Assembly (NCBI GenBank): GCA_017860615.1
Contig: JAGDMU010000001.1
Location: 186,001-250,000 of the forward strand
Source: Pseudomonadota bacterium
GTDB taxonomy: Bacteria; Campylobacterota; Campylobacteria; Campylobacterales; Sulfurospirillaceae
DNA length: 64,000 bases
Direction: 5' to 3'
Under the pieces are notes generated by a model, which worked only from the letters and a program-made list of their open reading frames with translations, was not told the DNA's origin and made no database searches. Below are positions 5,988 to 35,669 of this stretch, in pieces. The position numbers were made by a program, and so were the translations under genes. The stretch's first letter is position 1. Each line of letters opens with the position of its first letter.

Positions 5988-5997
5988 TGCTTTACAT

Positions 5998-6022: not shown

Positions 6023-6037
6023 GCTACTTTTATGTGA

Positions 6038-6067: not shown

Positions 6068-6530
6068 ACTGTGCTGACTCCTCTTTGCTATCGCATGTTG
6101 TAAGCACATGGTACTCTTCCATATTCATCTCCAAGCCTGTTTTTTTATTAATGACAATAGGCTCAGCAATTTCACCTGTTTTGACATGGATGATACGGCT
6201 TGTAAGCCCTACTGGGGTAGCGTGCTTGTTTCCCCACTCAAACATCATCACCAATACAGGAGCCAAATCCTCACCTGCTTTGGTTAAAAGATATTCGTAA
6301 CGCTTGGTGCTCTCTCCATAATTTTGTTTCTGTAAAATGCCATATTCGACAAGATCGTTGAGTCGTTTTGTCAATATATTGGGCGCGATGCCTAAGCTTT
6401 TTTGAAATTCATCAAACCGTCTAAGTCCTTTGAAAATATCTCTAATAATCAGCATACTCCACCACTCTCCGACAATTTCTAAACATTGTGCAACAGGGCA
6501 AGGCATCTTGGTGTAACTTTTTCGTTTCAT
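6066..6530 (-). CDS. HxlR-family winged-helix transcriptional regulator
   Basis: 154 residues when started at the ATG at 6530, which has GGAGG 5 bp upstream; the frame is open to 6584 but that ATG lies inside the operator repeats. The sequence CPVAQCLEIVGEWWSMLIIR followed by the winged helix and NILTKRLNDLVEYGIL is diagnostic of HxlR. Cys11 sits at the position of the conserved N-terminal cysteine that in YodB, CatR and HypR senses quinones, hypochlorite or diamide. It is divergent from the SDR-RND operon, with two operator copies between, so it most likely controls that operon and itself. Confidence 0.9.
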   Translation of the reverse strand: MKRKSYTKMPCPVAQCLEIVGEWWSMLIIRDIFKGLRRFDEFQKSLGIAPNILTKRLNDLVEYGILQKQNYGESTKRYEYLLTKAGEDLAPVLVMMFEWGNKHATPVGLTSRIIHVKTGEIAEPIVINKKTGLEMNMEEYHVLTTCDSKEESAQ

Positions 6531-6544
6531 TTTTTCCTCCAATT

Positions 6545-6592
6545 TACTTGCATTATGATAGTAAATATAATATACTTGCATCATAATAGTAA
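6545..6592. promoter_or_regulatory. two direct-repeat operators for HxlR between divergent genes
   Basis: Two 20-bp copies of TACTTGCATnATnATAGTAA lie at 6545-6564 and 6573-6592, 28 bp apart start to start, differing at two positions. They fill the space between hxlR (start 6530) and the SDR gene (start 6627) and overlap any promoter elements of both. This is where an autoregulating divergent repressor would bind. Confidence 0.65.
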
Positions 6593-6626
6593 TTTACATT
6601 AAAAATTATAGCATAAGGAAAGCAAA

Positions 6627-7379
6627 ATGAATATGAACAACAATACAATTCTTATAACAGGTGGCACAAGCGGTATCGGCTTTGAATTAGCACGACAATT
6701 ATGCAAAAGCAATACCGTGATTATCACAGGGCGCGATCAAGAAAAACTTGACAAAGTCAAATCGGAATTAAAAGAGGTGCACGTCTTTCAATGCACGATT
6801 GACAAACATGATGAAATCGTTAACTTATATGAAAACGTCTCAAAGATGTTTCCAACTCTTAATATTCTCATCAACAATGCGGGTGTTATGAACAGAATCG
6901 ATTTACAAAAAGAGCGCGATATTCATAAGCTCACAGAAGAGATTATGGTCAATGTCATAGGTACTATTGGTATGACTACACAGTTTTTACCTCTTTTGCG
7001 TCAGCAAAAAACAGCTGCGATTGTGAACATTTCTTCCGCTTTAGCGTTTGTGCCGTTGGCAAGCACTCCTGTCTATTGTGCCAGTAAAGCAGCACTTCAT
7101 TCCTTTACGGATTCGTTACGCATACAGCTTAAAGATACGAACATTAAGGTCTTTGAATTAGCACCCTCTGTCACCAAAACACCTTTAATACAAGCATTGG
7201 ATAGCAATGAACAAAAAGGGATGAGCATTATGTCTGTGTCAGAACTTGTTAAGGTTGGCATCCGAAAAATCGAGTGCGATACGTTTGAAATCAGACCAGG
7301 TCAAAGCAATGCTCTTAAAATGCTGAGTCGCATTTCACCTCGTTTTGCTCTTCATATGATCAATAAGTCTGGACACTAA
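6627..7379 (+). CDS. short-chain dehydrogenase/reductase (DltE-like SDR)
   Basis: 250-residue classical SDR. The cofactor motif TGGTSGIG is at residues 11-18, the NNAG motif follows near residue 89, the catalytic serine lies in NISS and the YxxxK pair in YCASK. The C-terminus ends in the short GQSNALKMLSRISP tail typical of DltE-like oxidoreductases. It reduces or oxidises a small carbonyl compound with NAD(P); the substrate is unknown. It is the first gene after the HxlR operators and 54 bp before an RND efflux set, so it probably modifies the compound that the pump removes. Confidence 0.88.
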   Translation: MNMNNNTILITGGTSGIGFELARQLCKSNTVIITGRDQEKLDKVKSELKEVHVFQCTIDKHDEIVNLYENVSKMFPTLNILINNAGVMNRIDLQKERDIHKLTEEIMVNVIGTIGMTTQFLPLLRQQKTAAIVNISSALAFVPLASTPVYCASKAALHSFTDSLRIQLKDTNIKVFELAPSVTKTPLIQALDSNEQKGMSIMSVSELVKVGIRKIECDTFEIRPGQSNALKMLSRISPRFALHMINKSGH

Positions 7380-7433
7380 AATGCACCATTTAACCAGAGT
7401 ACTTAAAAGATTCGTACACCAAGAAGGGGCTTT

Positions 7434-8891
7434 ATGAAAATTCCTAAAATGACAGATGCAATTTTTCATCATTCGCTAGGATGTTTTGTATGCGCAATGA
7501 TGTTAATGGGGTGTGGCTCCACGCAGGTGCAAAGTCCAACCCCTGATGTTGCGCTTGCAACACAGTTTCGCAATGCAGACCTATCAGAGAGAGATGCTTT
7601 CAATGATAGGGAGTGGTGGAGTCGTTTTGACGATCCGATTTTGACAGAGCTTATTACTAAAAGTTTGAACACGAACTACGATGTGAAAATGGCGCTTTCA
7701 CGCATAAAAGGGGCGCGCGCTTTTAGAGATGCTCAATCGTCACGTTTGTCGCCTTCTTTGGACGTGCAAGGCTCCACCGCCTCTTCGCACAGTGGTTTAC
7801 CCCAAAGTGTTAAACAAGGAATTCCCGATACAAAGAGCAGTGCTTTAGGGCTAAATGTTGCTTGGGAGATTGATCTGAGTGGGGGAATTAGTGCTGCAAA
7901 AGATGCCGCTGAAGCAGACCTTTTGTCGGCTCAGTATGGCGTGGTTGGTATGAAATTGCTGATTGCCAGTGAAGTGGCGACCCAATACTTTCTTCTTCGC
8001 AGTACCGAACACGATTTAAAGCTCATGGAAGCGTTGTCGGTGAGTCAGCATGGAACACTCCATCTCACCACAAGACGCTTTAACGAAGGGCTTTCCAGTG
8101 AGTTGGACTTGCAGAGTGCTATCGCCGAGGCGAATGAGATCGATGCAAAAATTCCTCCACTACGTATGCTGATCGCTTCACTTCAAACGCAACTGGCTCT
8201 GTTACTAGGTGAAAATCCTTCAACGATGGTCATACCAAGCATTGCACATTACGATTTGCCCAAATCGCCTCTTATTGGAACCGCTCAACCACTTGACTTG
8301 CTGAAACGTCGACCTGATTTGATGGCGGCAGAATCACACTATGCGGCAGAATCATTACGCACGGAAGAGGCTCGTTCACAGTACTGGCCTAAACTGTTTT
8401 TGAATGCCCTTTTGGGACGTGAAGACTTGCGTCTCAATGGGCTTAATTTAGCGCCTGTCAATTTTTCAAATGTTGCTTTAACGTTTGCGATGCCAATTTT
8501 TAACGCAGGGAAAATTCAAGCGGGTGTAGAAGCACAATCATCCCGCGAAAATGAAGCGTTACTCGGTTGGCAAAAATCAGTCTTAACCGCGCTTAAAGAG
8601 GTTGAAGACTCTCTGGTCGTTTGCCATGAAGAGCAAAAGCGAGGAGAATTTTTAGCGCAATCACTTCAAAGCAAACGTCTTGTATTGCGTAAGGCGGAAT
8701 CCCTTTTTGCGCAAGGTGAGTCCGATAAATTAGTGGTATTGCAAGCACAACGTCTTGTTTTGCTCAGTGAAATGAGTGTCACCGACCAACGCGCCAAACG
8801 CTTACTCGCTGATGTTCAGCTCTATAAAGCATTAGGGGGTGGTTGGAATGTATCGAAGGAAGAATCAAAAGAAGGAACAACCAATGAATAG
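7434..8891 (+). CDS. RND efflux outer-membrane factor lipoprotein (NodT/OprM family), second set
   Basis: 485 residues with lipobox LMGC (Cys27), the DREWWSRFDDPILTELI entry motif and the RRPD motif (LLKRRPDLMAAE) of NodT-family channels. AAGGGG lies before the ATG. Here the outer-membrane factor precedes adaptor and pump, the reverse of the first operon, so the two sets are not a recent tandem duplication. Its end overlaps the adaptor start by 8 bp. Confidence 0.92.
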   Translation: MKIPKMTDAIFHHSLGCFVCAMMLMGCGSTQVQSPTPDVALATQFRNADLSERDAFNDREWWSRFDDPILTELITKSLNTNYDVKMALSRIKGARAFRDAQSSRLSPSLDVQGSTASSHSGLPQSVKQGIPDTKSSALGLNVAWEIDLSGGISAAKDAAEADLLSAQYGVVGMKLLIASEVATQYFLLRSTEHDLKLMEALSVSQHGTLHLTTRRFNEGLSSELDLQSAIAEANEIDAKIPPLRMLIASLQTQLALLLGENPSTMVIPSIAHYDLPKSPLIGTAQPLDLLKRRPDLMAAESHYAAESLRTEEARSQYWPKLFLNALLGREDLRLNGLNLAPVNFSNVALTFAMPIFNAGKIQAGVEAQSSRENEALLGWQKSVLTALKEVEDSLVVCHEEQKRGEFLAQSLQSKRLVLRKAESLFAQGESDKLVVLQAQRLVLLSEMSVTDQRAKRLLADVQLYKALGGGWNVSKEESKEGTTNE

Positions 8892-10023
8892 GAAATGGAT
8901 GCGTTATACAAAAAAAATGATGCTATGTGCTTCGATACTTGTGTTTGCAGGGTGTGGACAGGTCGAAAGTAAAAAAGAAGTGCCAACCTTAGTGTACGTA
9001 ACAGCGTTTCATCAATCACAAGGGTATGATGAAGTGTTGCTCACAGGCAGTATTCGCTCACGCAGTGAAACAGCAATGGGGTTTCGTGTGGGTGGAAAAG
9101 TGCTCAAACGTATGGTTAATGTCGGCGATCATGTCAAAAAAAATCAACCCCTCGCTACACTTGATTCGGTGGATTATCAATTAGCGGTTGGTGTTGCAGC
9201 CGAGCAGTTAGCAGCAGCTAAGGTCACTGCTGAACAAGCGATGGTGGATGCTGCTCGGTTTAAGCGTTTGGGGAGCGATGGGTCGATTGCCATTGCTGAA
9301 ATTGAAAGACAGCAAACACGTGCTGATGCGGCACGCGCTACGATGGAGCAAGCCAAACAGCAACTGGAGTTGGCAAAAAATAAAGTAGAGTATACCGCAC
9401 TGAAGGCACCGTTTGATGGCGTTATTACTGCGTTGAATTTTGAAGAGGGACACGTCGTCTCTGAGGGACAACCGCTCATTTTCGTTGCCAAAAAAGGTGA
9501 ATACGAAGTGGCGGTTGATCTACCAGAGCATCTGGTTTCTCATGTTAAAGAATATAAAACAACGGCAATATCATGGAATGATGCCAAGATCTCTTTCAAT
9601 CTTACGATGCGAGAACTCTCCTCTATGGCGACACCGCAAGGTCGTATGTATCCTGCGCGTTATGTACCAAGTCGTGACGCTTTAGAGACGATTGCGTCAT
9701 TGCCTTTGGGAAGTACCGTTAAATTTACGTTGTCCCGCCCGATGGAGAGTGGAACAACCTTACCGATCAGCGCGGTGATTAAAACCAAAGAGAGTGCCGG
9801 GGTTTGGGCGTTAAATAGTGCTGAAAATGGGGTTGAGTTTGTTCCTGTGAACATTCGCGATTATGGTACGCGTACGGTGCGTGTTACGGGGTTAAAAGAT
9901 GGCATCAAGGTCGTCAGTGTGGGTACGCAAAAACTTGACGCATCCATGAAAGTACAACCGATAGAGCGCCCCTACGAAACAGTCGTAGAAATACCTAGAA
10001 AGGGAGCTTATGAAGGGCTTTAA
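8884..10023 (+). CDS. RND efflux periplasmic adaptor lipoprotein, second set
   Basis: The ATG at 8884 is chosen over the more upstream in-frame GTG because GAAGGA lies about 8 bp before it and the product then starts with a proper lipoprotein signal (lipobox FAGC, Cys24). It is then 379 residues. Lipoyl half-motifs (GFRVGGKVLKRMVNVGDHV; APFDGVITALNFEEGHVV) flank a coiled hairpin rich in Ala, Glu and Gln. It links the outer-membrane factor upstream with the RND pump downstream, which it overlaps by 14 bp. Confidence 0.92.
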   Translation: MNRKWMRYTKKMMLCASILVFAGCGQVESKKEVPTLVYVTAFHQSQGYDEVLLTGSIRSRSETAMGFRVGGKVLKRMVNVGDHVKKNQPLATLDSVDYQLAVGVAAEQLAAAKVTAEQAMVDAARFKRLGSDGSIAIAEIERQQTRADAARATMEQAKQQLELAKNKVEYTALKAPFDGVITALNFEEGHVVSEGQPLIFVAKKGEYEVAVDLPEHLVSHVKEYKTTAISWNDAKISFNLTMRELSSMATPQGRMYPARYVPSRDALETIASLPLGSTVKFTLSRPMESGTTLPISAVIKTKESAGVWALNSAENGVEFVPVNIRDYGTRTVRVTGLKDGIKVVSVGTQKLDASMKVQPIERPYETVVEIPRKGAYEGL

Positions 10024-13000
10024 TCTCTCAGAGTGGGCGGTAACGCATCGCTCTATGACCCTCTTTTTAATCATAAGCACGCTTATTGTGGGTGTTTTTT
10101 CATTTAACAAACTGGGAAGACTGGAAGATCCAAATTTTAACGTACCCTCTATGACCATTGTTGTTGCATGGCCGGGTGCCACCGCTAAAGAGGTTCAAGA
10201 AGAGGTCATCAATAAAGTTGAGCGAAAAATACAAGAGCTTGATGCGTTGGATTATGTCAACTCCTATTCACGTCAAGGTTATGGCGCTATCAGGGTTTGG
10301 ATGAAAGGCGGAACGCCTAAGAAAGAGCTTGAAGATTCATGGTATCAGATACGAAAGAAAATATCGGATATTCGTCAAGAATTTCCGGCAGGTGTGCGTG
10401 GACCTTTTTACAACGATGAGTATAATGATGTTTACAGCGTTCTCTACGCCATCAGTGCGCCAGATTTATCCACGGCGGAACTTCATGACACAACGGAGCG
10501 CATCAAGCGACAATTACAAAGTGTAGTGGGGGTCAATAAAGTTGATGTGCTTGGTAAACAACAAGAGCAAGTGTTTGTGGAACTCTCTATGCGAAAACTA
10601 GCGGCACTTGGCATCCGTCCTAACACGGTCATCGACGCATTGGCGCATCAAAACAGTGTCTCTCCTTCAGGCTCGGTGGATGCCACAAGCGATCGCGTTT
10701 ATGTCCGTGTCACGGGTGCCATCGATCGTGTTAAAGAGCTTGGCAATGTTGCCATTGAGGCAGGGGGTAAAACACTTAGACTCTGTGATATTGCGACGAT
10801 CAGCATTGGTTATGAAGATCCTCAGAGTTTTACCATTCGTCGTAATGGTGAGCCTATTGTTGCTATCGGCGTCACGATGAAGCGCAATGGCAATATTTTG
10901 GATCTGGGTCATGCGCTTGATACCAAGATGGAAACCATCAAAACGACCTTGCCACTTGGCGTTGAAATCGAAAAATACGCCGATCAACCCCGAGTGGTAG
11001 AAGAGTCTGTGTGGGAGTTTGAACGTTCATTTTTAGAGGCATTGATTATCGTGCTTTTCGTCTCATTTATCTCGCTTGGCTGGCGAACAGGTATCGTTGT
11101 AGCCGCTTCCATACCTTTAGTGTTGGGCGTCGTTGCTGCTATTATGTATGCTTCGGGTTGGAATTTGGATCGTATCTCTTTGGGGGCTTTGATTATCGCA
11201 CTTGGGTTATTGGTGGATGATGCGATTATCGCCGTTGAGATGATGGTCGTGAAGATAGAAGAGGGCTGGGATCGCTTAGAAGCGGCGACGTATGCTTATA
11301 GTTCAACTGCTTTTCCGATGCTCACAGGAACACTCATTACCGTAGCAGGTTTTATGCCCGTTGGCTTTGCAAAATCCATTTCGGGAGAGTATGCTGGTGG
11401 TATTTTTTGGGTCGTGGGTGTTGCCCTTGTGGCATCATGGTTGGTTGCGGTTATCTTTACGCCTTATCTTGGTATGGCGTTATTGCCAAAAATGAAACCT
11501 ATAGAACACGCAGAAAGCATTTACGATAAACCTATTTACCATAAATTGCGCGCTATGGTGATGTGGAGTATTTCAAAGAGATGGCTTGTTTTGGGCTCAA
11601 CGCTGCTTCTCTTTGGACTGGCAGGGGCTGGAATGCTTTTGGTTCAACAGCAATTTTTCCCTACGGCGTCACGTCCTGAACTCTTGGTAGAACTTAGGTT
11701 ACGTGAAGGCTCCTCTTTTGAAGCGACACAAAAACAAGTTTACAAGATGGAGCAGATACTCAGAAATGATGCTGAAATCGAGAGCTTTACGGTCAATACG
11801 GGAGCAGGTGCTCCACGGTTCTACCTCTCGCTTCAACCCGAACTTCCAAATCCTGCCTATGCGCAGTTTGTGCTTGTGATGAAAAGCAATGAACAAAGAG
11901 AGCATGTGCGCAACAGACTTATGGAAATTTTCGATAAAAATGAAGCCTTCCCTGACATTCGTGCGCGTGTTTTACGACTTGAGTTTGGTCCTCCTGTTGG
12001 TTTTCCGGTTCAGTTTAGAGTTATCGGACCTGACCCTTTAAAAGTACGCGAAATTGCGTACAACGTGAGAGACATTGTTCGTACAAGTCCTTTGGTAAAA
12101 GACACCCAATTAGACTGGAATGAGCAAGTACGAACGATTGGGCTGAATGTGGATCAAGATAAAGCGAGTCTGCTAGGGCTGTCATCGGCCGATATTCAAA
12201 ATATGGTGCAATTATCGCTGAACGGTGTGAGCACAACGCAAATCAGGCGAGGCGAAGAGTTGGTGGATGTTGTGGTACGCTCCACGCCAGAAGAGCGTCT
12301 TTCCATCGAACACATAGGAAGCCTTCAGTTATTTTCACGTGCGAGCATGGTGCCTCTTTCACAAATTGCAAATGTTGAGCCAACCTTTGAAGAGCCTGTG
12401 CTTTGGCGTCGTAACAGAGACCTTGCTATTACCGTGCGCAGTGACGTGCATGATGGGATTCAAGGTCCTTATGCAACGTCACAGATTATGCCTTTATTGC
12501 AACCAGTGATTGATGCAATGCCTTTGGGATACCATATAGAAGTGGGCGGCGCAATCGAAGAGAGTGACAAATCAAATAAGGCTCTGTTTGAGGTATTTCC
12601 TCTCATGTTTGCGGTTATATTGTTACTTCTCATGGCACAGCTTCAACGATTTTCGCTGATGTTTATGGTTTTACTCACAGCACCATTGGGGCTTATTGGC
12701 GTTGTTCCAGCTCTTTTGATTTTCAATGCTCCTTTTGGTTTTGTGGCATTATTGGGGGTTATTGCTTTGGGTGGTATGATTATGCGGAACTCATTGATAT
12801 TGGTAGATCAGATTGAACAAGATATTGAGCGAGGGGCATCCCCTTGGGTGGCGATTATTGATGCAACGGTGCGTCGTTCACGCCCTGTTGTTCTCACCGC
12901 AGCCGCCGCCATTTTGTCGATGATACCATTGAGTCATAGTGTTTTTTGGGGACCAATGGCGATTGCCATTATGGGTGGACTGATTGTTGCGACAGCGTTA

Positions 13001-13078
13001 ACACTGGTTTTTGTCCCTGCTTTGTACGCAGCATGGTTTAAAGTAAAAATCGATACAAAAGATATGAAAAATGAGTAA
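10010..13078 (+). CDS. RND efflux permease, second set
   Basis: 1022-residue inner-membrane pump. TM4 has GLLVDDAIIAVEMMV with the two proton-path aspartates. The late motif reads GVIALGGMIMRNSLILVDQ, so the AcrB proton-relay lysine position is occupied by Arg, as in a subgroup of RND pumps distinct from AcrB. The beginning (LSEWAVTHRSMTLFLIISTLIVG) differs from the first pump. Belongs to the HxlR-linked SDR-OMF-adaptor-pump operon. Confidence 0.94.
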   Translation: MKGFNLSEWAVTHRSMTLFLIISTLIVGVFSFNKLGRLEDPNFNVPSMTIVVAWPGATAKEVQEEVINKVERKIQELDALDYVNSYSRQGYGAIRVWMKGGTPKKELEDSWYQIRKKISDIRQEFPAGVRGPFYNDEYNDVYSVLYAISAPDLSTAELHDTTERIKRQLQSVVGVNKVDVLGKQQEQVFVELSMRKLAALGIRPNTVIDALAHQNSVSPSGSVDATSDRVYVRVTGAIDRVKELGNVAIEAGGKTLRLCDIATISIGYEDPQSFTIRRNGEPIVAIGVTMKRNGNILDLGHALDTKMETIKTTLPLGVEIEKYADQPRVVEESVWEFERSFLEALIIVLFVSFISLGWRTGIVVAASIPLVLGVVAAIMYASGWNLDRISLGALIIALGLLVDDAIIAVEMMVVKIEEGWDRLEAATYAYSSTAFPMLTGTLITVAGFMPVGFAKSISGEYAGGIFWVVGVALVASWLVAVIFTPYLGMALLPKMKPIEHAESIYDKPIYHKLRAMVMWSISKRWLVLGSTLLLFGLAGAGMLLVQQQFFPTASRPELLVELRLREGSSFEATQKQVYKMEQILRNDAEIESFTVNTGAGAPRFYLSLQPELPNPAYAQFVLVMKSNEQREHVRNRLMEIFDKNEAFPDIRARVLRLEFGPPVGFPVQFRVIGPDPLKVREIAYNVRDIVRTSPLVKDTQLDWNEQVRTIGLNVDQDKASLLGLSSADIQNMVQLSLNGVSTTQIRRGEELVDVVVRSTPEERLSIEHIGSLQLFSRASMVPLSQIANVEPTFEEPVLWRRNRDLAITVRSDVHDGIQGPYATSQIMPLLQPVIDAMPLGYHIEVGGAIEESDKSNKALFEVFPLMFAVILLLLMAQLQRFSLMFMVLLTAPLGLIGVVPALLIFNAPFGFVALLGVIALGGMIMRNSLILVDQIEQDIERGASPWVAIIDATVRRSRPVVLTAAAAILSMIPLSHSVFWGPMAIAIMGGLIVATALTLVFVPALYAAWFKVKIDTKDMKNE

Positions 13079-13106
13079 AGCAGTGAACCACTTTTAGGCT
13101 TTACAT

Positions 13107-13133
13107 GTAAACGCTAAACGCTTTGGCGTTTAC
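13107..13133 (+). terminator. stem-loop downstream of RND operon 2
   Basis: A 12-bp stem (one G-U pair) with a 3-base CGC loop, starting GTAAACGC and ending GGCGTTTAC. It is preceded by CTTTACATGTAA, as is the hairpin at 5998-6022, so the two elements look like copies of one unit. Confidence 0.55.
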
Positions 13134-13230
13134 ACGCTCTGTTTGAAACTCGCTCATATACATTGTAAGCTGCACTATGTCAAACGCTCTTGGTAAAATA
13201 GGGCGTTTGGCAATCCTTTAATCTTCTCAT

Positions 13231-13295
13231 TTCGTAGAATTAGGCATGAAATTTGGAGAATTTGTTTAGAAAAAATTCAAATATTTTACTATAAT
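13231..13295 (+). promoter_or_regulatory. AraC-type activator site A and -10 box, upstream of araC 1
   Basis: GTAGAATTAGGCA (13234-13246) is followed by GTTTAGA (13264-13270) and TATAAT (13290-13295); no -35 consensus. The same layout recurs at five other promoters in this window with the -10 at the same distance. Its place 35 bp before the first araC gene suggests autoregulation. Confidence 0.6.
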
Positions 13296-13329
13296 GGAAA
13301 AACTACGCATAAAGCATTAAAGGATTTTA

Positions 13330-14244
13330 ATGAATGATTCTTTAGATAAGTATAGATTGGAACTTATAGACTTTATTCAAACGAAGTACTCTTTTAGTGA
13401 GAGTCTGCAAAGTGAGATTCCTTGTTTGATGTTCCATGTATCAGAGACTCCAACAGAATTTAAAAGTATCATGTATGAGCCGTGCTTGTGTATTATCTTA
13501 CAAGGGTCAAAAGCTGTTGGATTTGGCACTAAACTCTATCAATATGATCCTTACCAGTACCTCTTGTCTTCAACGCATGTTCCCTCCGATATCAGAATTT
13601 TAGAAGCATCTAAAGAGACTCCTTACATTTCTTTAACCATTCGCTTTACACTTGAAAATATCTATGAAGTTCTTAAAAATACCAATCCTGAAAAACTAAA
13701 ATTTCAAAAAAAAGCGGAGCAAGGTCTCTTTTTTGATGAGCTCAATACAAAGTTATATGAACCAATCTATCGCCTTGTAAAATTACTAGCGATGCCACAA
13801 GAGGACATAAAGTTTCTCTCACCCTTTATTATCAAAGAGATTTTGTATCTGCTCGTGAATGAAAAAAGTGGTTACTTTTTAAATAAATTTGCCATGGAAG
13901 GAACGGCTTCGAACAAGATCGTCAAAGCTATTACAGAGATTACCAATACGTTTAGTGAAAAGCTCAATATGAAAGAGCTAGCCCGTCGTATCGATATGGC
14001 AGAATCTTCGCTCTATCAAAACTTTAAAACCATTACTTCCATCTCTCCGTTACAGTTTCAAAAAAAGCTTCGGCTTGAAGAAGCTAAACGTATGCTAACG
14101 CATCGCAATATCGATGTTTCGGAAGTAGCATTTTTAGTGGGGTATGAAAGTCCATCACAGTTTAGCAGAGAATACTCCCGTATGTTTGGTGTCCCTCCCA
14201 AAGAGCATCAAAAAAGCGCTAAAGAGAAGAATTTAGCTTATTAA
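13330..14244 (+). CDS. AraC-family transcriptional regulator, AraC_N (YqhC-like) type, paralogue 1
   Basis: 304 residues. An N-terminal AraC_N-like domain (about residues 20-175; PSVCIVLQG-like motif EPCLCIILQGSK) is followed by two HTH units in about residues 195-295. The second HTH contains VAFLVGYESPSQFSREYSRM. E. coli YqhC, an activator of the aldehyde reductase gene yqhD, has this domain layout. A paralogue lies at 22846-23742 with the same second recognition helix. Likely activates the six promoters that share the GTAGAAwTAGGCA box; this is inference from motif and neighbours. Confidence 0.9.
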   Translation: MNDSLDKYRLELIDFIQTKYSFSESLQSEIPCLMFHVSETPTEFKSIMYEPCLCIILQGSKAVGFGTKLYQYDPYQYLLSSTHVPSDIRILEASKETPYISLTIRFTLENIYEVLKNTNPEKLKFQKKAEQGLFFDELNTKLYEPIYRLVKLLAMPQEDIKFLSPFIIKEILYLLVNEKSGYFLNKFAMEGTASNKIVKAITEITNTFSEKLNMKELARRIDMAESSLYQNFKTITSISPLQFQKKLRLEEAKRMLTHRNIDVSEVAFLVGYESPSQFSREYSRMFGVPPKEHQKSAKEKNLAY

Positions 14245-14264
14245 TAGCCGTTTATAAGCTAAAT
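14231..14264 (+). terminator. rho-independent terminator of araC 1
   Basis: ATTTAGCTTAT pairs perfectly with ATAAGCTAAAT (11 bp) around a 12-base loop, followed by a run of T from 14268. The left arm overlaps the last codons of the regulator gene. Confidence 0.75.
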
Positions 14265-14271
14265 TGATTTT

Positions 14272-14336
14272 TTCATAGAAATAGGCAACTCCTTGAAAGA
14301 ATCAGTCTACTGATAAAAATACATTTCTTCTATAAT
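14272..14336 (+). promoter_or_regulatory. AraC-type activator site B and -10 box, upstream of hydrolase-cupin operon
   Basis: CATAGAAATAGGCAA (14274-14288), then GTCTA (14305-14309), then TATAAT (14331-14336). Box-to-TATAAT distance equals that of site A and is one base shorter than at the other four sites. The gene start is 35 bp after the -10 box. Confidence 0.65.
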
Positions 14337-14370
14337 GTCTCATAGAAAATAATTTTTTTGGGGAGACAAA

Positions 14371-15474
14371 ATGAACAAAGAAAAAGAACAATCCAGACGC
14401 AATTTTATGAAACAAAGTGCTTTTGTAGGAGCAAGTTTAGTTCTTGCAAGTAGTACAAGTGCTTTTGCTTCAAATACACAAGAGTCAAATTCTAAAAAAC
14501 AAAGTGGAGTTTCAATGACAACAACATGGGATAAAACATTCCCTAAAAGCGATAAAGTTGATCATCAAAAAGTGACATTTAAAAATCGTTATGGCATTAC
14601 CTTAGCGGGTGATTTATACCTACCCAAAAATCGTGCCAATCAACCATTACCAGCTCTTGCCATCAGTGGTCCTTTTGGTGCGGTTAAAGAGCAGTCTTCA
14701 GGATTGTATGCGCAAATCATGGCTGAAAAAGGCTTTGTTGCTATAGCGTTTGACCCATCTTATACAGGTGAGAGTGGTGGAGAGCCACGCAATATCGCAT
14801 CGCCTGAGATCAACACGGAAGACTTTAGTGCGGCGGTGGATTATTTAGGGATTCAACCCTTTGTCGATAAAAATCGTATTGGTATCATAGGCATTTGCGG
14901 TTTTGGCGGTATGGGCTTAAATGCTGCGGCTGTGGATAAACGTGTGAAAGCCGTTGCGGTGGCAAGTATGTACGATATGTCACGCGTTATGGCAAAAGGG
15001 TACTATGACAAGATGACGCTTGAAGAGCGTACCCAAATGTTAGAGCAAATGAATGAGCAACGCTGGGTTGATGCAAAAAATGGAACACCTGCTCCAAGTT
15101 CACGCATTTTGCCTGAAAAACTGAAAGGCGATGAACCCCAATTTGTGGTGGATTATTTTAATTACTATCGAACTCCTCGTGGATTTCATGCGCGTTCACT
15201 CAACTCAAATGGAGCATGGACGGTTACGACGCTATTACCTTTTATGAACATGCCATTGCTTACTTACATTAACGAGATTTCACCACGCCCACTTCTCATT
15301 ATCGCAGGTGAGAATGCACATTCACGTTACTTTAGTGAAGATGCCTACAAAGCAGCCAATGAGCCTAAAGAGTTGATGATAATCCCCAATACGGTGCATG
15401 TGGATTTATACGACAAAGTAGAGAAAATCCCGTTTGACAAACTGGATGCGTTCTTTAAAAAGAGTTTGAAATAA
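14371..15474 (+). CDS. Tat-exported alpha/beta hydrolase with cysteine nucleophile (dienelactone-hydrolase-like)
   Basis: 367 residues. The N-terminus has the twin-arginine motif SRRNFMKQ and a hydrophobic stretch ending in SAFA, so the folded enzyme is exported. The mature part is an alpha/beta hydrolase; the nucleophile elbow reads GICGFGG, placing Cys where most relatives have Ser, as in dienelactone hydrolases. A late Asp (about residue 335) and the His in PNTVHVDLYD fit the rest of a triad. Substrate unknown. Followed after 20 bp by an exported cupin and preceded by AraC site B, so it is part of the proposed electrophile-response group. Confidence 0.85.
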   Translation: MNKEKEQSRRNFMKQSAFVGASLVLASSTSAFASNTQESNSKKQSGVSMTTTWDKTFPKSDKVDHQKVTFKNRYGITLAGDLYLPKNRANQPLPALAISGPFGAVKEQSSGLYAQIMAEKGFVAIAFDPSYTGESGGEPRNIASPEINTEDFSAAVDYLGIQPFVDKNRIGIIGICGFGGMGLNAAAVDKRVKAVAVASMYDMSRVMAKGYYDKMTLEERTQMLEQMNEQRWVDAKNGTPAPSSRILPEKLKGDEPQFVVDYFNYYRTPRGFHARSLNSNGAWTVTTLLPFMNMPLLTYINEISPRPLLIIAGENAHSRYFSEDAYKAANEPKELMIIPNTVHVDLYDKVEKIPFDKLDAFFKKSLK

Positions 15475-15494
15475 AAGCATGACAAGGAGTAACG

Positions 15495-15992
15495 ATGAAA
15501 CGATATGTTCTTTTAGGATTAATAGGTGTGTGTTTGAGCACACATACTTTTGCGCAAGAGGGAGAAAAAACAATGCAAACCATTTCTAAAGTAGAGTCAC
15601 GAGCGTCAATTGATGTGAAGCAATCAGAGTATAAAAACTATTTTACAGGCGATGTCAGAGTCGATATGCTTTATCCACAAAGCAATGCAAAAACGCATAG
15701 CGGTGCTTATGTGACATTTGAACCTTGTGCTAGAACCCATTGGCATGTCCATCCTGCAGGGCAGCATATTATCGTAACTTCTGGCGTGGGGTATTATCAA
15801 ACATGGGGTGAGCCAGTAGAGATCATCAAAGCGGGTGATGTTGTTTGGATTCCTTCAGGTGTTAAACACTGGCATGGTGCTTCCAAAGAGATTGCTATGA
15901 CGCATTTAGTGGTGACAGGAGCCGATGAACATGGAAAAAATGTTGAGTGGTTAGAGCCTGTCAGTGATGAGCAGTATCGTCTAAAAAACTAA
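15495..15992 (+). CDS. exported cupin-domain protein
   Basis: 165 residues with a Sec signal peptide ending STHTFA (cleavage near residue 20). The single cupin domain shows THWHVHPAGQH, then GDVVWIPSGVKHWHG, giving the usual metal-binding histidines. Related small cupins accompany carboxymuconolactone-decarboxylase-like and hydrolase genes and may act as isomerases or decarboxylases on oxidised small molecules; the exact reaction is unknown. AAGGAG precedes the ATG. Co-transcribed with the hydrolase upstream, ending at the hairpin 16003-16028. Confidence 0.85.
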   Translation: MKRYVLLGLIGVCLSTHTFAQEGEKTMQTISKVESRASIDVKQSEYKNYFTGDVRVDMLYPQSNAKTHSGAYVTFEPCARTHWHVHPAGQHIIVTSGVGYYQTWGEPVEIIKAGDVVWIPSGVKHWHGASKEIAMTHLVVTGADEHGKNVEWLEPVSDEQYRLKN

Positions 15993-16002
15993 ATCTATCG
16001 CT

Positions 16003-16028
16003 AGGCTAGGTCTGAAAATTCCTAGCCT
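16003..16028 (+). terminator. stem-loop after hydrolase-cupin operon
   Basis: AGGCTAGG pairs with CCTAGCCT over a 10-base loop, directly after the cupin stop. No T-run follows; a 16-bp palindrome abuts it. Confidence 0.5.
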
Positions 16029-16043
16029 TAGTGTATACACTAA
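16028..16043. promoter_or_regulatory. 16-bp palindrome upstream of MFS gene, possible operator
   Basis: TTAGTGTATACACTAA is a perfect palindrome 78 bp before the MFS start codon. Its core GTGTATA also appears, as one half, just before the second araC gene (complement of 23745-23751). It may bind a dimeric repressor; the regulator is unknown. This MFS gene lacks the GTAGAAwTAGGCA box of its neighbours. Confidence 0.4.
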
Positions 16044-16120
16044 ACAAAACTTCTTCTATTGTTTTTTCTTCACATAACATTTCAATACAAATGTGTAATT
16101 TTTAAATAAAAAGGCTATTT

Positions 16121-17341
16121 ATGAAACATACCCATACCCATGTACACAATCACGACACAACAGCTCTTTGGAGCGCTGTTTGGGCGATGTCGTTGTGTGC
16201 CATGGTCTTAGTCGCATCGGAATTCATGCCAGTAAGTCTTCTCACACCCATTGCCACAGAGCTGCATATGAGCGAAGGCTATACAGGTCAGTCCATTGCT
16301 ATTTCAGGGCTTTTTGCACTCATCACAAGTTTATGGCTTACTTCATGGATCGGGTATGCTAACCGTCGCTTGGTTTTACTCTTTTTTACGTTATTGATGG
16401 GTATATCGGGCATTGTGGTGACTTTTGCCCCGAATGCGACTGTTTTAATGGTTGGTAGGGCGTTACTGGGAGCATGTATTGGTGGGTTTTGGTCGATGTC
16501 CGCAGCGGTTATTATGCGACTTGTTCCAAAAAAAGCTCTTCCAAAAGCGTTAGCTGTGCTGAATGGTGGTAATGCGCTATCAACGACCATTGCTGCACCA
16601 CTGGGAAGTTTTTTAGGGGGATTGATCGGCTGGAGAGGGGCATTTTTTACCATTGTCCCTTTGGCACTGATTGCTTTTGTGTGGCAGTGGCGCGCTTTAC
16701 CCTCTTTGCCTGCAAAGAAAAGAGATGATGGCAAAAAAACATCTGTGAAACACGTTTTGAAATTATTAAAATGTAAAAATGTGAGCTTAGGGATGTTGAG
16801 TTCGATGTTCTTTTTTATGGGACAGTTTGCACTCTTTACGTATCTACGTCCTTTTTTAGAGGGTGTCACAGGGGTTTCTGTTGAGATGTTGTCGTTGATT
16901 TTATTGGCGATGGGGCTCTGCGGATTAGCAGGAACATTTGTGATGGGTAGTGCTTTAAAAACGCGTTTGTATAGCCTGCTCATAGGCACACCATTCTTGA
17001 TGATGGTCATAGCCCTTGCTCTTATCTATTTTGGATCTTCTCTTAGTGCCGTTGTTGTACTACTGAATATCTGGGGCTTTCTAGGAACATCTGTACCTGT
17101 GGCATGGTGGACATGGCTGAGTCAGACACTTCCCAATGAAGCAGAAGCAGGAGGTGGGCTTATGGTGGCGATTATTCAACTTGCTATTACGATGGGTGCT
17201 TCTATCGGTGGGCTTTTCTTTGACACATTGGGCTATGAAGCGACGTTTGTATTTGCAAGTACATGCCTAGCGTGTTCAATGGTTTTGGCAGTGATGGCAC
17301 ATCATCAAAGCTATCAAAAAACTTTCTCTATCAATTCGTAG
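16121..17341 (+). CDS. MFS transporter, DHA1 family (NepI/AraJ-like exporter)
   Basis: 406 residues with about 12 membrane segments. The first segment VLVASEFMPVSLLTPIATEL is typical of the DHA1 drug/sugar/nucleoside exporters such as NepI and SotB. The N-terminus is unusual: HTHTHVHNHD within the first 14 residues, a His-rich cytoplasmic tail that may bind metal. AAGG-poor start, chosen as the first Met in frame. Its last codons overlap AraC site C for the next gene. Substrate not predictable. Confidence 0.87.
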   Translation: MKHTHTHVHNHDTTALWSAVWAMSLCAMVLVASEFMPVSLLTPIATELHMSEGYTGQSIAISGLFALITSLWLTSWIGYANRRLVLLFFTLLMGISGIVVTFAPNATVLMVGRALLGACIGGFWSMSAAVIMRLVPKKALPKALAVLNGGNALSTTIAAPLGSFLGGLIGWRGAFFTIVPLALIAFVWQWRALPSLPAKKRDDGKKTSVKHVLKLLKCKNVSLGMLSSMFFFMGQFALFTYLRPFLEGVTGVSVEMLSLILLAMGLCGLAGTFVMGSALKTRLYSLLIGTPFLMMVIALALIYFGSSLSAVVVLLNIWGFLGTSVPVAWWTWLSQTLPNEAEAGGGLMVAIIQLAITMGASIGGLFFDTLGYEATFVFASTCLACSMVLAVMAHHQSYQKTFSINS

Positions 17342-30756: not shown

Positions 30757-31704
30757 TTATTTGCCTTCTTGGATGGTTGAACGAAGCGCTAAGTCTTTAG
30801 GGTAAGGGTTTAAAAACTTCTGTCCTAAAAGGTAATGTATATCATACTTTTTAGCTAAAAATTCGATGGTATTCATAACAGCTATAAGTGGAACTATCTC
30901 ATCTCTAAACTCTTCGATTTGCATATGCAATGCCTGTTTTTCAACACTTGTGAGCTCTTTTTTAAAGAATCCTACCATATGTTGAAGGACATTGACCGTT
31001 TTTGCGATGGTGCTTTTATGCGCGATAGTCTTTTTAAAAAGTGTGAGGTACTCTTGCGTGAGTTCGCTAAGGTTTTTTTTCTCATGGTTTGCGACGATCT
31101 TCCCTAAAAGACGGTAATTGCCTTCGTGCTTGCTTTGCAGTAAAAATTTATAGGCGGTATGAAAGCTCACGAGTTCATTCATGGTTCTAATGTGCTTTTG
31201 AAGATTCAAGGCATCATGGTAAGCAAAGAGTTGCATGACAAAGTTTTCCCGAAGCCACGGGTCTAAAAGCCGCGCCTCTTCTTCGATGGGAAAGTCCGCA
31301 AAATGCTCTTTGCAAAGTGTCGCAAAAAGCCCATCTTTTTTACCTTCGCTCATCTCTTTAAGGTAATACTTCGTACTGCCAAGCCCACAACTGGGTGACT
31401 TTGACTTTAAGATGATGCCACAGAGCTCTTCTTTTTTTATTTTTTCTAGCTCATGTTCCATCGCTCTGTTCATCGCTTCAGTAACATCTGCTTTAGAAAA
31501 AACGGTGATGACCTTTTTGTGCTTATTTTCTAGCACAATGCGTATCGTCTCACGAGGTGTACCAAATGCCAAATGCTCAGGACAAAAAGGAATAAATGAG
31601 GCATACTTGCCAAGCTTATCGGTGATAAATCGATCTCTTTGACCTGTTTTATCATAACGGATTTGTTCACCAAGTAAGCAGGCTGAAACGGCTATTTTGA
31701 GCAT
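30757..31704 (-). CDS. DUF523 and DUF1722 (YbgA) fusion protein
   Basis: 315 residues. The first half has VSACLLGEQIRYD and SPSCGLGSTKYY (DUF523, conserved cysteines); the second half is YbgA-like DUF1722 with AYKFLLQSKHEGNYRLLGKIVA. The family is commonly next to photolyase in bacteria, as here, but has no proven biochemical activity. GGAG precedes the ATG. Confidence 0.9.
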   Translation of the reverse strand: MLKIAVSACLLGEQIRYDKTGQRDRFITDKLGKYASFIPFCPEHLAFGTPRETIRIVLENKHKKVITVFSKADVTEAMNRAMEHELEKIKKEELCGIILKSKSPSCGLGSTKYYLKEMSEGKKDGLFATLCKEHFADFPIEEEARLLDPWLRENFVMQLFAYHDALNLQKHIRTMNELVSFHTAYKFLLQSKHEGNYRLLGKIVANHEKKNLSELTQEYLTLFKKTIAHKSTIAKTVNVLQHMVGFFKKELTSVEKQALHMQIEEFRDEIVPLIAVMNTIEFLAKKYDIHYLLGQKFLNPYPKDLALRSTIQEGK

Positions 31705-31789
31705 GGAACTCCTTTGAAAAAAGCTATGACTATTATAGCCACTCCTTTTGATAAAAGGCTTAGTGGGAATGTGTTAGACTAATGAAAAT

Positions 31790-32569
31790 ATGTTTGAGAT
31801 ATGCTTGAGAAAATTTTCGAAAGAAATGGAAAAAATTAGAATGACAAATATAAAACTCATAATAATAGGACATGCTGACAGAGTTGTAAATTTTGATTTA
31901 ATCAAAAAATTCAAATCGAAGTTTTTTAAATTTTCAGATATTGAGCGTATTAATAATTTGCCAAATCCACAAAAAGACGATGGATATTTAGATATTGTAT
32001 ATACGAAAGAAGAGATTCAATCAATAATGAAAGAGATAGAATTTGAAGGTATATGCTTAGCAATAATGAATTATGGGTTTGATGATAACTTTTATATGCA
32101 CAGAGTAGGAGCTAATAAAGTTTGTATTTCAATTTTTGGATTAGAAAATATTTTAAGTGAAAAAACAATATCAATTGAAAATTTTATAATCAAAAACACG
32201 TATGAAGTTTTTATTTTTTACACAATATTGAAGAACTTAACAAAGCATAATGAAGTTTATACATTCGTTCATAATGATACACGAGGTTGTCTATTTGATA
32301 TGAATGGAGATAAACGAGATATAGTTTATAATACAGAAAAACCTATTATTTGTGATGAATGCAAAGGAAAAATAAGCAAGAAAGCAATACCTAAAAATTT
32401 TTTAGAGGATATTCAAAAAGAACTTTCAAAAATAGATAAACCTTTTATTAAAAAAATTGAAAATTTCATTGCTAAATATCCTTTATTTTCTGTTCTAACA
32501 ACTTTTATTTTTTCTACGATAATTAATCTATTTTCAAATTGGATTTGGGACTTTATAATTAAAAAATAA
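31790..32569 (+). CDS. AT-rich orphan gene, putative membrane-anchored protein of unknown function
   Basis: Open for 259 codons; the likely start is one of three in-frame ATGs (31790, 31826, 31841), none with a good ribosome-binding site. Composition is far more A/T-rich than all neighbours. Residues about 20-110 look like an alpha/beta domain (IKLIIIGHADRVVNFD; GICLAIMNYGF). A motif HNDTRGCLFDMNGDKRDI followed by ICDECKGK gives one CxxC pair, and a hydrophobic helix (about 235-255) near the C-terminus suggests membrane anchoring. Flanked by unrelated genes on the other strand. I cannot assign a function; acquisition by transfer is likely. Confidence 0.75.
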   Translation: MFEICLRKFSKEMEKIRMTNIKLIIIGHADRVVNFDLIKKFKSKFFKFSDIERINNLPNPQKDDGYLDIVYTKEEIQSIMKEIEFEGICLAIMNYGFDDNFYMHRVGANKVCISIFGLENILSEKTISIENFIIKNTYEVFIFYTILKNLTKHNEVYTFVHNDTRGCLFDMNGDKRDIVYNTEKPIICDECKGKISKKAIPKNFLEDIQKELSKIDKPFIKKIENFIAKYPLFSVLTTFIFSTIINLFSNWIWDFIIKK

Positions 32570-32597
32570 GATTACAAAGGAAATCAGAGAGTATTAA

Positions 32598-32631
32598 AAA
32601 GCATGTAAGGCTTTTACACCTAACATGCTTT
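32598..32631. terminator. bidirectional terminator between orphan gene and paaK operon
   Basis: A 13-bp stem with one A/A mismatch (AAAGCATGTAAGG with CCTAACATGCTTT) and an 8-base loop between convergent genes; A and T runs flank it on either side. Confidence 0.7.
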
Positions 32632-32634
32632 AAT

Positions 32635-33933
32635 TTACTTCGGTCGTTTATCGACCACTCTCACTGCTTTTCCCTCACTTCTTTGAAGCGATTTTGGAGC
32701 AACAAGTTTGACTTCGACGTTGATGTAGAGGTTATTTAAAAGAGCGTGTTCAAGGTTTTTCTTCAAACTTCCAAGGTAGCTCACATCATCGCTGATGAGA
32801 TGCTCATCGAGTTCGATGTCAATTTCCAGTTTATCGAGGTAGCCTTTTTTATCGGCGATGATTTGGTAGTTGAGGGTGATGCCTTCTTGTTTGGAAAGCA
32901 CGTGTTCTATTTGCGATGGAAAGACGTTGACACCATTGATAAGGAGCATATCGTCGCTTCTTCCTACGATGCTTTCGATTCTACCGATGGTTCTGCCACA
33001 ACGGCATGGAATGCGTGTCAGAGAGGTGATGTCACCCGTTCGGTAGCGAATGATCGGCAAGCCTTGTTTGGTAAGGGTTGTGATGACCAGCTCGCCACGT
33101 GTGCCCTCAGGTAGGACTTCGCCCGTTTCAGGGTTGATGATTTCAGGGTAAAAATGGTCTTCGTGTATGTGTAGGAGATTTGAGTGTTTGCAGTTACACG
33201 CCACACCTGGTCCTATGATCTCAGAGAGTCCATAAATCTCGTGGTAGTCTATGCCCCAGATATGGGCTATCTCGTTTTTAAGTCCCTCGCTGGTTGGCTC
33301 CGCTCCAAAAAATCCCACACGTAGTTTAAAATCTTTTGCGATGTCATAGCCCTCAGCCTTTGCCACTTCTGCCATGTGAAGCGCAAACGAAGGTGTTGCG
33401 GTAAGCACCGTTGCACCAAAGTCTTTTAACAGCAAGAGTTGACGAGAGGTAAAGCCTGTGGAGCTTGGAATGACAGCGATTTTCATGCGTTCTGCTGCAT
33501 TATGAAAGCCAAGACCGCCTGTGAAAAGCCCATAACCATGAGAGTTTTGCATGATGTCTTGACAGGTCACACCACCCATGGTAAAGGCACGTCCCATCAC
33601 TTCTGCCCAGATGTCCATGTCGTGCTCGGTGTAGCCTACAACGGTTGGTTTTCCTGTTGTTCCACTAGAACTGTGGATGCGCACGATTTGGTCCATATCG
33701 ACCGAGAACATCCCAAAAGGGTAGTTGTCGCGTAGGTCTTTTTTCTTGGTAAAGGGAAGTTTGGCAAGGTCTTCTAAACTTTTGACATCTTGCGGTAAAA
33801 CACCGTGCTCATCAAACTTTTTTTTGTAAAAAGGGACGAGATGATAGACCCTAAGAAGCGTCTCTTTGAGATGTTTGAGTTGCCACGCTTGAAGCTCATC
33901 ACGGCACAAGCTTTCATTTTTGCTAAAAGTCAT
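32635..33933 (-). CDS. paaK: phenylacetate-CoA ligase, copy 2
   Basis: 432 residues. The nucleotide loop [16 protein letters not shown], then [14 protein letters not shown] and YRTGDITSLTRIPCRCGRTIGRI, are PaaK motifs for ATP-dependent thioesterification of arylacetates to CoA. The C-terminal AMP-binding lid contains [19 protein letters not shown]. Last gene of a run with indolepyruvate oxidoreductase, so its substrate is probably phenylacetate, indoleacetate or a relative. The first copy lies two genes upstream. Confidence 0.93.
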   Translation of the reverse strand: MTFSKNESLCRDELQAWQLKHLKETLLRVYHLVPFYKKKFDEHGVLPQDVKSLEDLAKLPFTKKKDLRDNYPFGMFSVDMDQIVRIHSSSGTTGKPTVVGYTEHDMDIWAEVMGRAFTMGGVTCQDIMQNSHGYGLFTGGLGFHNAAERMKIAVIPSSTGFTSRQLLLLKDFGATVLTATPSFALHMAEVAKAEGYDIAKDFKLRVGFFGAEPTSEGLKNEIAHIWGIDYHEIYGLSEIIGPGVACNCKHSNLLHIHEDHFYPEIINPETGEVLPEGTRGELVITTLTKQGLPIIRYRTGDITSLTRIPCRCGRTIGRIESIVGRSDDMLLINGVNVFPSQIEHVLSKQEGITLNYQIIADKKGYLDKLEIDIELDEHLISDDVSYLGSLKKNLEHALLNNLYINVEVKLVAPKSLQRSEGKAVRVVDKRPK

Positions 33934-33936
33934 CTT

Positions 33937-34371
33937 TTACTCGTAAAAATGTTTGGCTTGAACGATCTCAATGTTCTTGGCTTGCAATGCAGCAATAGCA
34001 TCGTTGAAGCGATCTTTGTCAACACTGAAGATAAAAATACCTGTACTTGCCTCGTAGAAACTGTATGTGTAAAGAATGTTAATACCAGCCTCAGAGAGCG
34101 CACTCACAGCCTTGTCGAAGCTTCCTACAACGTCTTCGATCTTCACACCAAAAACATCGGTAAAGCGCACGCTAAAGCCTTCATCTTCAAGCACGGTTTT
34201 GGCTTTTTCAGGATTGTCCACGATGGTGCGAACCAAACCAAAGTCGGTTGAATCCGCGAGTAAAATCGACTTGATAGAGATGCCATTTTTGGAGAGAATG
34301 TGCGTCAGCACGGAAAGCTCACCTGCCTTATTTTCTAAAAAAATCGTTAGTTGTTTGATGTTGCATTTCAT
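33937..34371 (-). CDS. tandem ACT-domain protein
   Basis: 144 residues with two ACT repeats: QLTIFLENKAGELSVLTHIL and, near residue 72, IEDVVGSFDKAVSALSEAGINILYTYSF. ACT pairs bind amino acids and regulate enzymes. It is placed between two PaaK genes (overlap of one base with the upstream stop, 3 bp to the next), suggesting it senses an aromatic amino acid for this operon. Confidence 0.88.
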   Translation of the reverse strand: MKCNIKQLTIFLENKAGELSVLTHILSKNGISIKSILLADSTDFGLVRTIVDNPEKAKTVLEDEGFSVRFTDVFGVKIEDVVGSFDKAVSALSEAGINILYTYSFYEASTGIFIFSVDKDRFNDAIAALQAKNIEIVQAKHFYE

Positions 34372-35669
34372 TAAAGACTCCTTTTGTCGATGACGCGGAC
34401 GGCTTTGCCGACACTGCGCTCTATGGTTCGTGGCTCAACGAGTTTTATATCTGCGTTAATGTAGAGGTTGTTGAGCAGTTCGTGTTGGATTTTTTTCTTC
34501 AAGGCTTCGAGTTGCCCGATGCTATCTAATGGCATATCTTCGGTCACTTCTACCATGATCTCGAGTTTATCGAGGTAGCCTTTTTTATCGGCGATGATTT
34601 GGTAGTTAAGCGTGATGCCTTGGATGTTGGAGAGCACGTGTTCTACTTGTGATGGGAAGACATTGACGCCATTAACGATGAGCATGTCATCGACACGTCC
34701 CATAACGCTTTTCATACGTACGTGTGTGCGTCCGCAACGGCAGGGTGTTCTATCTAAAGCGGTGATGTCACCTGTTCGGTAGCGGATGATAGGAAACGCC
34801 TGCTTGGTAAGGCTGGTGATAACGAGCTCACCTTTTTCGCCATATGGCAGAACTTCAAGCGTTTTTGGGTCGATGATCTCAGGGTAAAAGTGGTCTTCAA
34901 AGATATGGAGGTCTTTGCTCTCAAAACAATTGCTCGACACACCAGGGCCTATGATCTCAGAAAGCCCGTAAATCTCACAGTAGTGAATGCCCCAAACACG
35001 GGCTACTTCTTCTTTAAGTCCTAGACTGGTTGGCTCAGCGCCAAAGATACCGCATTTGAGTTTGAAATCGTTTTGGATGTCATAGCCCTCAGAGATAGCC
35101 GCTTCTGCCATATGGAGTGCAAAAGAGGGTGTCGAAGTAAGGACGGTTGCTTCAAAGTCTTTCATCAGCATGAGTTGGCGTGACGTAAAACCACCAGAAC
35201 TAGGTACAACGGTAGCGCCCACAGTTTCCGCACCATAGTGAAGTCCTAGACCGCCTGTAAAAAGACCGTAGCCATAAGCGTTATGCGCGGTATCTTCACT
35301 GGTGACACCTGCCATCGTAAAGACACGCGCCATGACTTCATTCCATGTATCAAGGTCTGCTTTAGTGTAGCCAACAACGGTTGGTTTTCCCGTAGTTCCG
35401 CTACTGCTATGCACACGCACAACCGCATCTTTTTTGACGGCAAACAACCCAAAGGGGTAGTTGTCACGTAAGTCTTGTTTTTTGGTAAATGGCAATTTTG
35501 CAATGTCATCGATGGATGTAATATCCGCAGGTGTGATGCCAAGTTCTGCAAATTTCTTTTGGTAAAATGGTACATTGGCATAGACGCGTGCAACGGTGTC
35601 TTGAAGCCTTTGTGTTTGAAGTTCGCTGAGTTTATGACGAGGGAGTGTCTCTTCTTTTGACCAGATCAT
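34371..35669 (-). CDS. paaK: phenylacetate-CoA ligase, copy 1
   Basis: 432 residues, the same length as copy 2 and highly similar throughout, for example [16 protein letters not shown] and [19 protein letters not shown]. Differences cluster in the substrate region, so the paralogues may prefer different aryl acids. Overlaps the oxidoreductase beta gene by 4 bp and the ACT gene by one base, so it is firmly part of the operon. Confidence 0.93.

Follow-up and report, generated by a model that had tools for sequence, protein, structure and literature searches.

The small AT-rich gene at 31790..32569 on the plus strand of the window (that is, the whole stretch of 64,000 nucleotides that was analysed) encodes what appears to be a dead archaemetzincin carrying a membrane tail: its larger part is predicted to have the metzincin fold, with the archaemetzincins as the best match, an assignment well supported by structural models, and the loss of catalysis, which would make it a pseudo-protease, is well supported by the sequences of the family. 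Also well supported, to judge from gene distribution and insertion site, is a recent horizontal transfer of the gene. We propose that it acts as a mobile single-gene defence protein in which a dead-archaemetzincin sensor is joined to a membrane-helix effector, a proposal to which we give about an even chance and in which the defence role is one that we infer from fusions and context. New here are the assignment of the domain and the observation that several effector types make use of it.

As first reported, the open reading frame codes for 259 amino acids (31790..32569, plus strand). Homologues begin at the motif MxxIKLxxxGH, so that the true start is probably at 31841, giving a likely coding sequence of 242 amino acids (31841..32569, plus strand; the start codon is taken from the homologue alignment). 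A chance ORF is ruled out by 13 homologues, 25-82% identical, which align across the length of the protein; the source genome carries a single copy. With a GC content of 0.236 and a GC3 of 0.173, the gene is at the bottom of the 56 non-overlapping window ORFs that reach 100 aa or more (mean GC 0.402, sd 0.038; second-lowest 0.338), and it is solitary between two neighbours, at 30757-31704 and 32635-33933, both on the minus strand; on both points the earlier note, which had described a very AT-rich gene standing alone between minus-strand genes, is borne out. The sharp difference in composition to which it had also pointed holds for the window copy and is now refined, because the GC of the gene is below that of its surroundings in 15/15 relatives checked and AT-richness is therefore a trait of the family, the extremes being a relative with 25.6% within a 55.5% region (L049) and a marginal case with 32.9% within 33.9% (L058). 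The former, seen in the whole of L069 and at 1498-2232 of L049, is a gene that lies together with a Fic gene inside that region, among genes that we take to be cobalamin-synthesis-like, and looks like a very clear recent insertion. Downstream of the window gene, an inverted repeat at 32598..32631 (13-nt arms, 8-nt loop) is a possible terminator, left uncalled by a terminator scan of the locus that came back empty; a promoter scan at the locus scored no better than shuffled sequences. Beyond it, on the minus strand at 32635-35669, two 432-aa paralogues, presumably PaaK-like, stand on either side of a 144-aa protein, presumably ACT-like.

The recent transfer that the earlier note had suspected was upheld by the comparison with sister strains that it had advised. 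In a genus sample of 24 genomes, five of them below 90% complete, the family profile matches only the source genome itself, whose left-hand neighbour, by contrast, has its protein or a related one in 23; an ordinary conserved gene is thereby ruled out, and neither vertical conservation in the genus nor normal composition was found. In the closest genome (locus L018), whose left-hand neighbour is 95% identical, the site is empty: by blastn, homology of the flanks ends at 31762 and restarts at 32595, with 128 bp there against about 830 bp in the window, so that the acquired segment extends approximately over 31763..32594. A second genome (L030) also has an empty site. Identity across families is high, the window protein being 82% identical to its homologue in L048 and 69% to that in L049, both from other families of the order, and 79% to that of an epsilonproteobacterial MAG (L011); the source genome shares its order with G345 and G295. 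Profile searches by phylum, whose counts include some longer relatives and the rows of L060, L124 and L126 that were later dropped, were positive in 3/397 genomes of the source phylum (its own included), in 12/395 of the phylum of a Bacteroidales MAG and in 6/288 of that of a Victivallales MAG (the centre included in each).

Further copies are found in Bacteroidales and Victivallales MAGs, on two mobilizable plasmids, on an inovirus contig that encodes Zot and secretin and on a tailed-phage-like contig, which we take to be of tailed-phage type; twelve of the 16 short members were found on contigs of genomes or MAGs and the rest in virus or plasmid records. An annotated phage collection held no relatives of the family, viral scans with the window protein alone and with the group of longer proteins L063-L066 returned none, and plasmid searches with the domains of L065 and L127 were likewise negative. 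Among 150 relatives, eight proteins from other genera matched weakly (E 4e-5 to 1e-3) and were put down to chance, as the phylum profile search listed none of them; their loci are presumably of trmD/rplS type, an L19-like protein being visible at two (L006 and L009).

The insertion site itself is variable among genus relatives, being occupied by a PDC-S42-type gene, a transglycosylase pair or other ORFs (L025, L028), or empty. In one sister genome the gene at the site (L023, 2580-3512) matches the PADLOC defence candidate PDC-S42 with E 3e-90, and in another (L024, 2581-3501) the protein is 83% identical to it; the NCBIfam label for the PDC-S42-type protein is a putative phage structural family, at 60.7 bits against a cut-off of 60. 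By eye, the 128-bp gap of L018 resembles the start of the PDC-S42-type gene and is perhaps a remnant. At the same left-hand gene, L026 (2573-3797) and L029 (2577-3800) have a two-gene unit, with a transglycosylase-domain protein first (Transgly match 1e-37 in L026) and, after it, a gene without a Pfam match in which a nucleotidyltransferase-like motif can be made out by eye; the two overlap by 14 bp in L026, and the unit is possibly another defence cassette. Of 21 other loci, L018, L024, L025, L028 and L030 are the only ones in which the right-hand flank was seen on the same piece, so that for L023, L026 and L029 the left-hand border alone is established.

The domain, which the earlier note could not assign, can now be identified as a degenerate archaemetzincin, on the strength of its fold and of an intermediate sequence. 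Fold prediction, suggested in that note along with a remote homology search, gave archaemetzincins as the best match in the models of two family members. The AlphaFold2 model of the window protein (six-sequence alignment; pLDDT 78, pTM 0.72) retrieves archaemetzincins at ranks 1-4 in a Foldseek search of the PDB (2x7m, 3zvs and 4axq among them; E 2.2e-4 to 3.4e-3), followed by other metzincins. VIA-align places it on 2x7m with Z 9.6 and an rmsd of 3.9 over 155 residues, the Z values being 8.9 for 4axq, 8.7 for 3zvs, 8.2 for 3lmc and about 8 for venom metzincins; with a margin of only about 1 Z between archaemetzincins and other metzincins, the fold class is more secure than the archaemetzincin label. 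The inovirus homologue, which shares 28% identity with the window protein, was modelled as well (pLDDT 81) and has archaemetzincins at ranks 1-3 against the PDB (E 2.2e-3 to 4.1e-3), with VIA Z values of 9.9, 9.8, 9.3 and 8.6, the last, for 3lmc, level with a venom metzincin. The alignments behind the two models have most rows in common, so that the models are not fully independent, and both are of moderate confidence, lowest around the signature motif described below. A structure search of viral proteins returned nothing at E ≤0.001, a phage matrixin being the best row at E 0.019. On these models, the metzincin-fold, archaemetzincin-like domain would span approximately residues 1-187 (31841..32401, plus strand; VIA Z 9.6 as above).

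This domain has no HExxH motif, which is missing from all 24 family proteins examined, namely 16 short and 8 longer ones after the exclusion of L060 (internal stops), L124 (contig edge) and L126 (a 38-aa frame). The helix of residues 112-130 (32174..32230, plus strand), probably at the position of the active-site helix in the secondary structure of the model, carries no conserved His in the family alignment; an archaemetzincin HMM puts the corresponding stretch of L014 on its active-site helix, at a non-significant score. What is conserved is the signature H144-x5-C150-x20-C171-x2-C174 (HNDTRGCLFDMNGDKRDIVYNTEKPIICDEC; 32270..32362, plus strand), whose four residues are invariant across the 14 aligned short members and present in 16/16; the HNDTRGCLFD motif and the ICDEC pair singled out in the earlier note are indeed present and lie within the most conserved part of the family. 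Among the longer proteins the pattern is largely kept, except that in L062 the first of the two Cys of C-x2-C is an Asp and that L067 has a spacing of 21. The archaemetzincin consensus is given as HEXXHXXGXXHCX4CXMX17CXXC (PMC3427221), and the signature is likely to be the remnant of its third zinc-ligand His and zinc finger. The Cys4 zinc finger C-x4-C-x-M-x17-C-x-x-C is incomplete, three of the four Cys being kept, the first replaced by N145 in the window protein, and the Met at +4 rather than +2.

Direct comparison of profiles fails to connect the short family with the archaemetzincins, whose homology therefore stands on the fold and on L067 as a bridge. Between the short family and true archaemetzincins hhalign gives a probability of 0.2%, an HMM of 25 true archaemetzincins (chosen by their HEXXHXXGXXH motif) meets the window protein at E 0.33, and the family HMM finds no archaemetzincin among PDB sequences, its best row, a glutamate racemase (E 0.0055), being taken as chance. 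The L067 domain is linked to the short family by an hhalign probability of 93.7 and, on the other side, L067 matches the NCBIfam archaemetzincin model NF033823 (E 4.1e-6; 26.9 bits, below the cut-off of 145), Pfam M54, PF07998 (E 6.7e-4; 20.1 bits, below the cut-off of 24.4) and the HMM of the 25 true archaemetzincins (E 1.7e-4, with 24 sequences searched). With the same domain as query, phmmer placed the archaemetzincin 3lmc no higher than rank 14 of 15, at E 1.4, and with the window protein it returned nothing of use. No model of Pfam, NCBIfam, PADLOC or PHROGs convincingly recognises the window protein, DUF3150 (E 0.065) and phrog_15067 (E 0.076) having been rejected. Since HExxH is absent and the signature kept, the protein is filed as an archaemetzincin-derived pseudoenzyme and not as an archaemetzincin peptidase. 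As for true archaemetzincins, 47 of 116 genomes among the relatives of G595 have one above the Pfam cut-off, where a 2012 paper had them in very few eubacteria.

The C-terminal membrane helix reported from the first reading is confirmed: a hydrophobic segment is present in 16/16 short members (19-residue hydropathy 1.62-2.58), and in the window protein, whose own Kyte-Doolittle mean of 1.62 at residue 214 is borderline taken alone, the model has a helix at residues 214-241 (32480..32563, plus strand) that is probably transmembrane. A single gene thus combines a predicted sensor-type domain with a hydrophobic helix. In relatives the domain is joined to other modules. In L062 it is fused to a TIR domain (TIR_2, 4e-28), the homology of the shared part being given by hhalign (98.4) and tblastn (1e-6). 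The C-terminus of L127 matches a PADLOC effector that is annotated as TIR (7e-11) and, below the cut-off, a Pfam deoxyribosyltransferase; that of L125 matches the PADLOC defence candidate PDC-S60 (2e-13) and nothing in Pfam; and L067 has Mrr_cat at its N-terminus and a SoFic-like wHTH at its C-terminus. The longer proteins L063-L066 are related to the short family by hhalign (96.7), and genes for SLATT and for a ThsB-like TIR protein adjoin L063, downstream of which come those for PLD and a helicase; genes that we take to be vWA-like adjoin L064 and L065, and the region of L066 is presumably one with recombinases. The dead-metzincin protein of L077 belongs to an island at 2681-16282 that also encodes a ThsB-like TIR, SLATT, a membrane protein, a PLD protein and a helicase whose DISARM/Zac-like matches are weak, and the island may be an undescribed multigene defence system; in L079, by eye, a helicase-like gene adjoins vWA-like and dead-metzincin genes. 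The suggestion of the earlier note that the protein recalls a membrane-anchored effector of defence or conflict systems is thus partly supported, by the TIR, TIR-like and nuclease fusions and by the PDC-S42-type gene that two sister genomes carry at this site. Neighbours of defence type at several loci of relatives (hsdR, KilA-N, Fic, HipA, a ThsB-like TIR and SLATT), and the copies on plasmids and on phage-like and inovirus contigs, would agree with such a role, although other loci show no such neighbours.

That a dead protease fold is linked to swappable effector-type modules suggests a division of labour, with recognition in the shared part and action in the variable one. Having lost HExxH, the domain of residues 1 to about 187 should no longer cut; its Cys/His core, which resembles the zinc finger of archaemetzincins, is kept, and the substrate groove presumably as well, and the domain might recognise a peptide, a protein or another cue of infection by a phage or other mobile element. 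Binding would lead the tail-anchored, cytosol-facing protein to change shape or to oligomerise, and the C-terminal transmembrane helix would then breach the inner-membrane barrier and stop the infected cell; the helix is the sole candidate actor in the window protein, and for this reason a membrane-disrupting effector is proposed, although it may be a mere anchor. In relatives the same domain would drive other likely killing modules (TIR, deoxyribosyltransferase/TIR-like, Mrr nuclease). More broadly, and somewhat more tentatively than for the window protein itself, dead archaemetzincins could be an unrecognised, exchangeable invader-sensing module, combined with a membrane-pore helix, TIR, deoxyribosyltransferase/TIR-like or Mrr domains or linked to vWA and SLATT proteins, in which the groove of the former protease reads peptides or proteins of the invader.

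The neighbourhoods of the relatives bear on another role, in which the protein would counter, as an antitoxin, or modulate a linked toxin, Fic above all, and would have been left an orphan in the source genome. A Fic gene, or Fic-like fragments, is next to the gene in the three closest relatives: in L048/L068 the order is hsdR, KilA-N, the gene and Fic fragments, with a 4-base overlap with each neighbour if the first start codon is used, and the fragments resemble the Fic of L011, where a complete Fic gene with a SoFic-like C-terminus comes next; a SoFic-like C-terminal wHTH is also borne by the Mrr-fused L067. However, the Fic that follows the gene in L049 is of a different type (Fic domain only, with no Fic_N or SoFic_C), neither a defence gene nor a Fic ORF was recognised beside the window copy, and no constant adjacent partner, of the kind that marks a toxin-antitoxin pair, was found at other loci, where the neighbours vary: HipA precedes the gene in L013 and also lies near that of L067 (L081), and no defence gene was recognised near those of L012, L014, L058, L059 and L061. 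We consider an antitoxin very unlikely.

The copies on the inovirus contig, the tailed-phage-like contig and the mobilizable plasmids, together with the small tail-anchored architecture, would also suit a fitness or superinfection-exclusion cargo of such elements, seated in the membrane and blocking the entry or maturation of competitors without killing; the predominance of genome and MAG contigs among the short members and the TIR and Mrr fusions, which fit cell suicide or nucleic-acid attack better, make this rather unlikely. A regulatory role outside defence, in which the dead archaemetzincin serves as a membrane-seated protein-protein adaptor or metal sensor, has a precedent in the transcriptional regulator CarG, which includes an inactive archaemetzincin (PMC3427221), and would agree with the zinc-finger-type Cys/His residues kept in the family, yet the patchy distribution, the AT-rich mobile copies and the TIR/nuclease fusions are unlike a host regulator, and we hold it to be quite unlikely. 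That the protein is still a membrane-anchored metalloprotease, with H144 and others as unusual ligands, is hardly credible: H144, D153 and the cysteines show little or no variation, but HExxH is absent throughout the family and the helix at the active-site position offers no conserved His. If, on the sensor-effector reading that we prefer, the domain does sense infection, a new class of sensor would have arisen from a dead protease and be common to several effector types, the trigger of orphan single-gene defences would become directly testable with one small protein, and the known use of dead archaemetzincins would widen from transcription, as in CarG, to immunity.

Compared with known systems, the family has in common with the archaemetzincins (MEROPS M54; PF07998, NF033823; 2x7m, 4axq, 3zvs, 3lmc) the fold and the spacing of the His and the last three Cys (H-x5-C-x20-C-x2-C against H-C-x4-C-x-M-x17-C-x-x-C), while the window protein lacks HExxH and the first Cys of the zinc finger, has CLFDM in place of CxM, bears extra C-terminal helices and the hydrophobic tail, and falls short of their sequence profiles when compared directly. 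Cam1 is a small CARF-plus-helix protein. It is a CRISPR effector mediating membrane depolarisation (PMC10808066) and depends on CRISPR and cyclic-oligoadenylate signalling, whereas the window protein has a putative pseudo-metzincin sensor and no signal-making partner gene recognised. In the open-licence literature, archaemetzincins were not found together with TIR, or with TIR domains and conflict systems, PDC-S42 and PDC-S60 were not named, and among papers on inactive zincins only PMC8195603, by title, concerns immune conflict systems. Rare metallopeptidase domains are mentioned among the effectors of vWA systems (PMC7159879), and the iSTAND2 MoxR-vWA conflict systems include inactive zincin-like domains, listed among effectors with PUA and STAND domains (PMC8195603); compared by description, these and the window domain are both dead zincins in predicted conflict proteins, and the passages on them in that account make no mention of archaemetzincin ancestry or of TIR or TM fusions. 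A further precedent is CarG of Myxococcus xanthus, a bacterial archaemetzincin homologue with a regulatory use, which the literature presents as lacking proteolytic activity and as forming a subdomain of a transcriptional regulator (PMC3427221): in CarG the Glu of HEXXH is changed to Gln, whereas in the window family HExxH is wholly absent and a membrane tail has been added.
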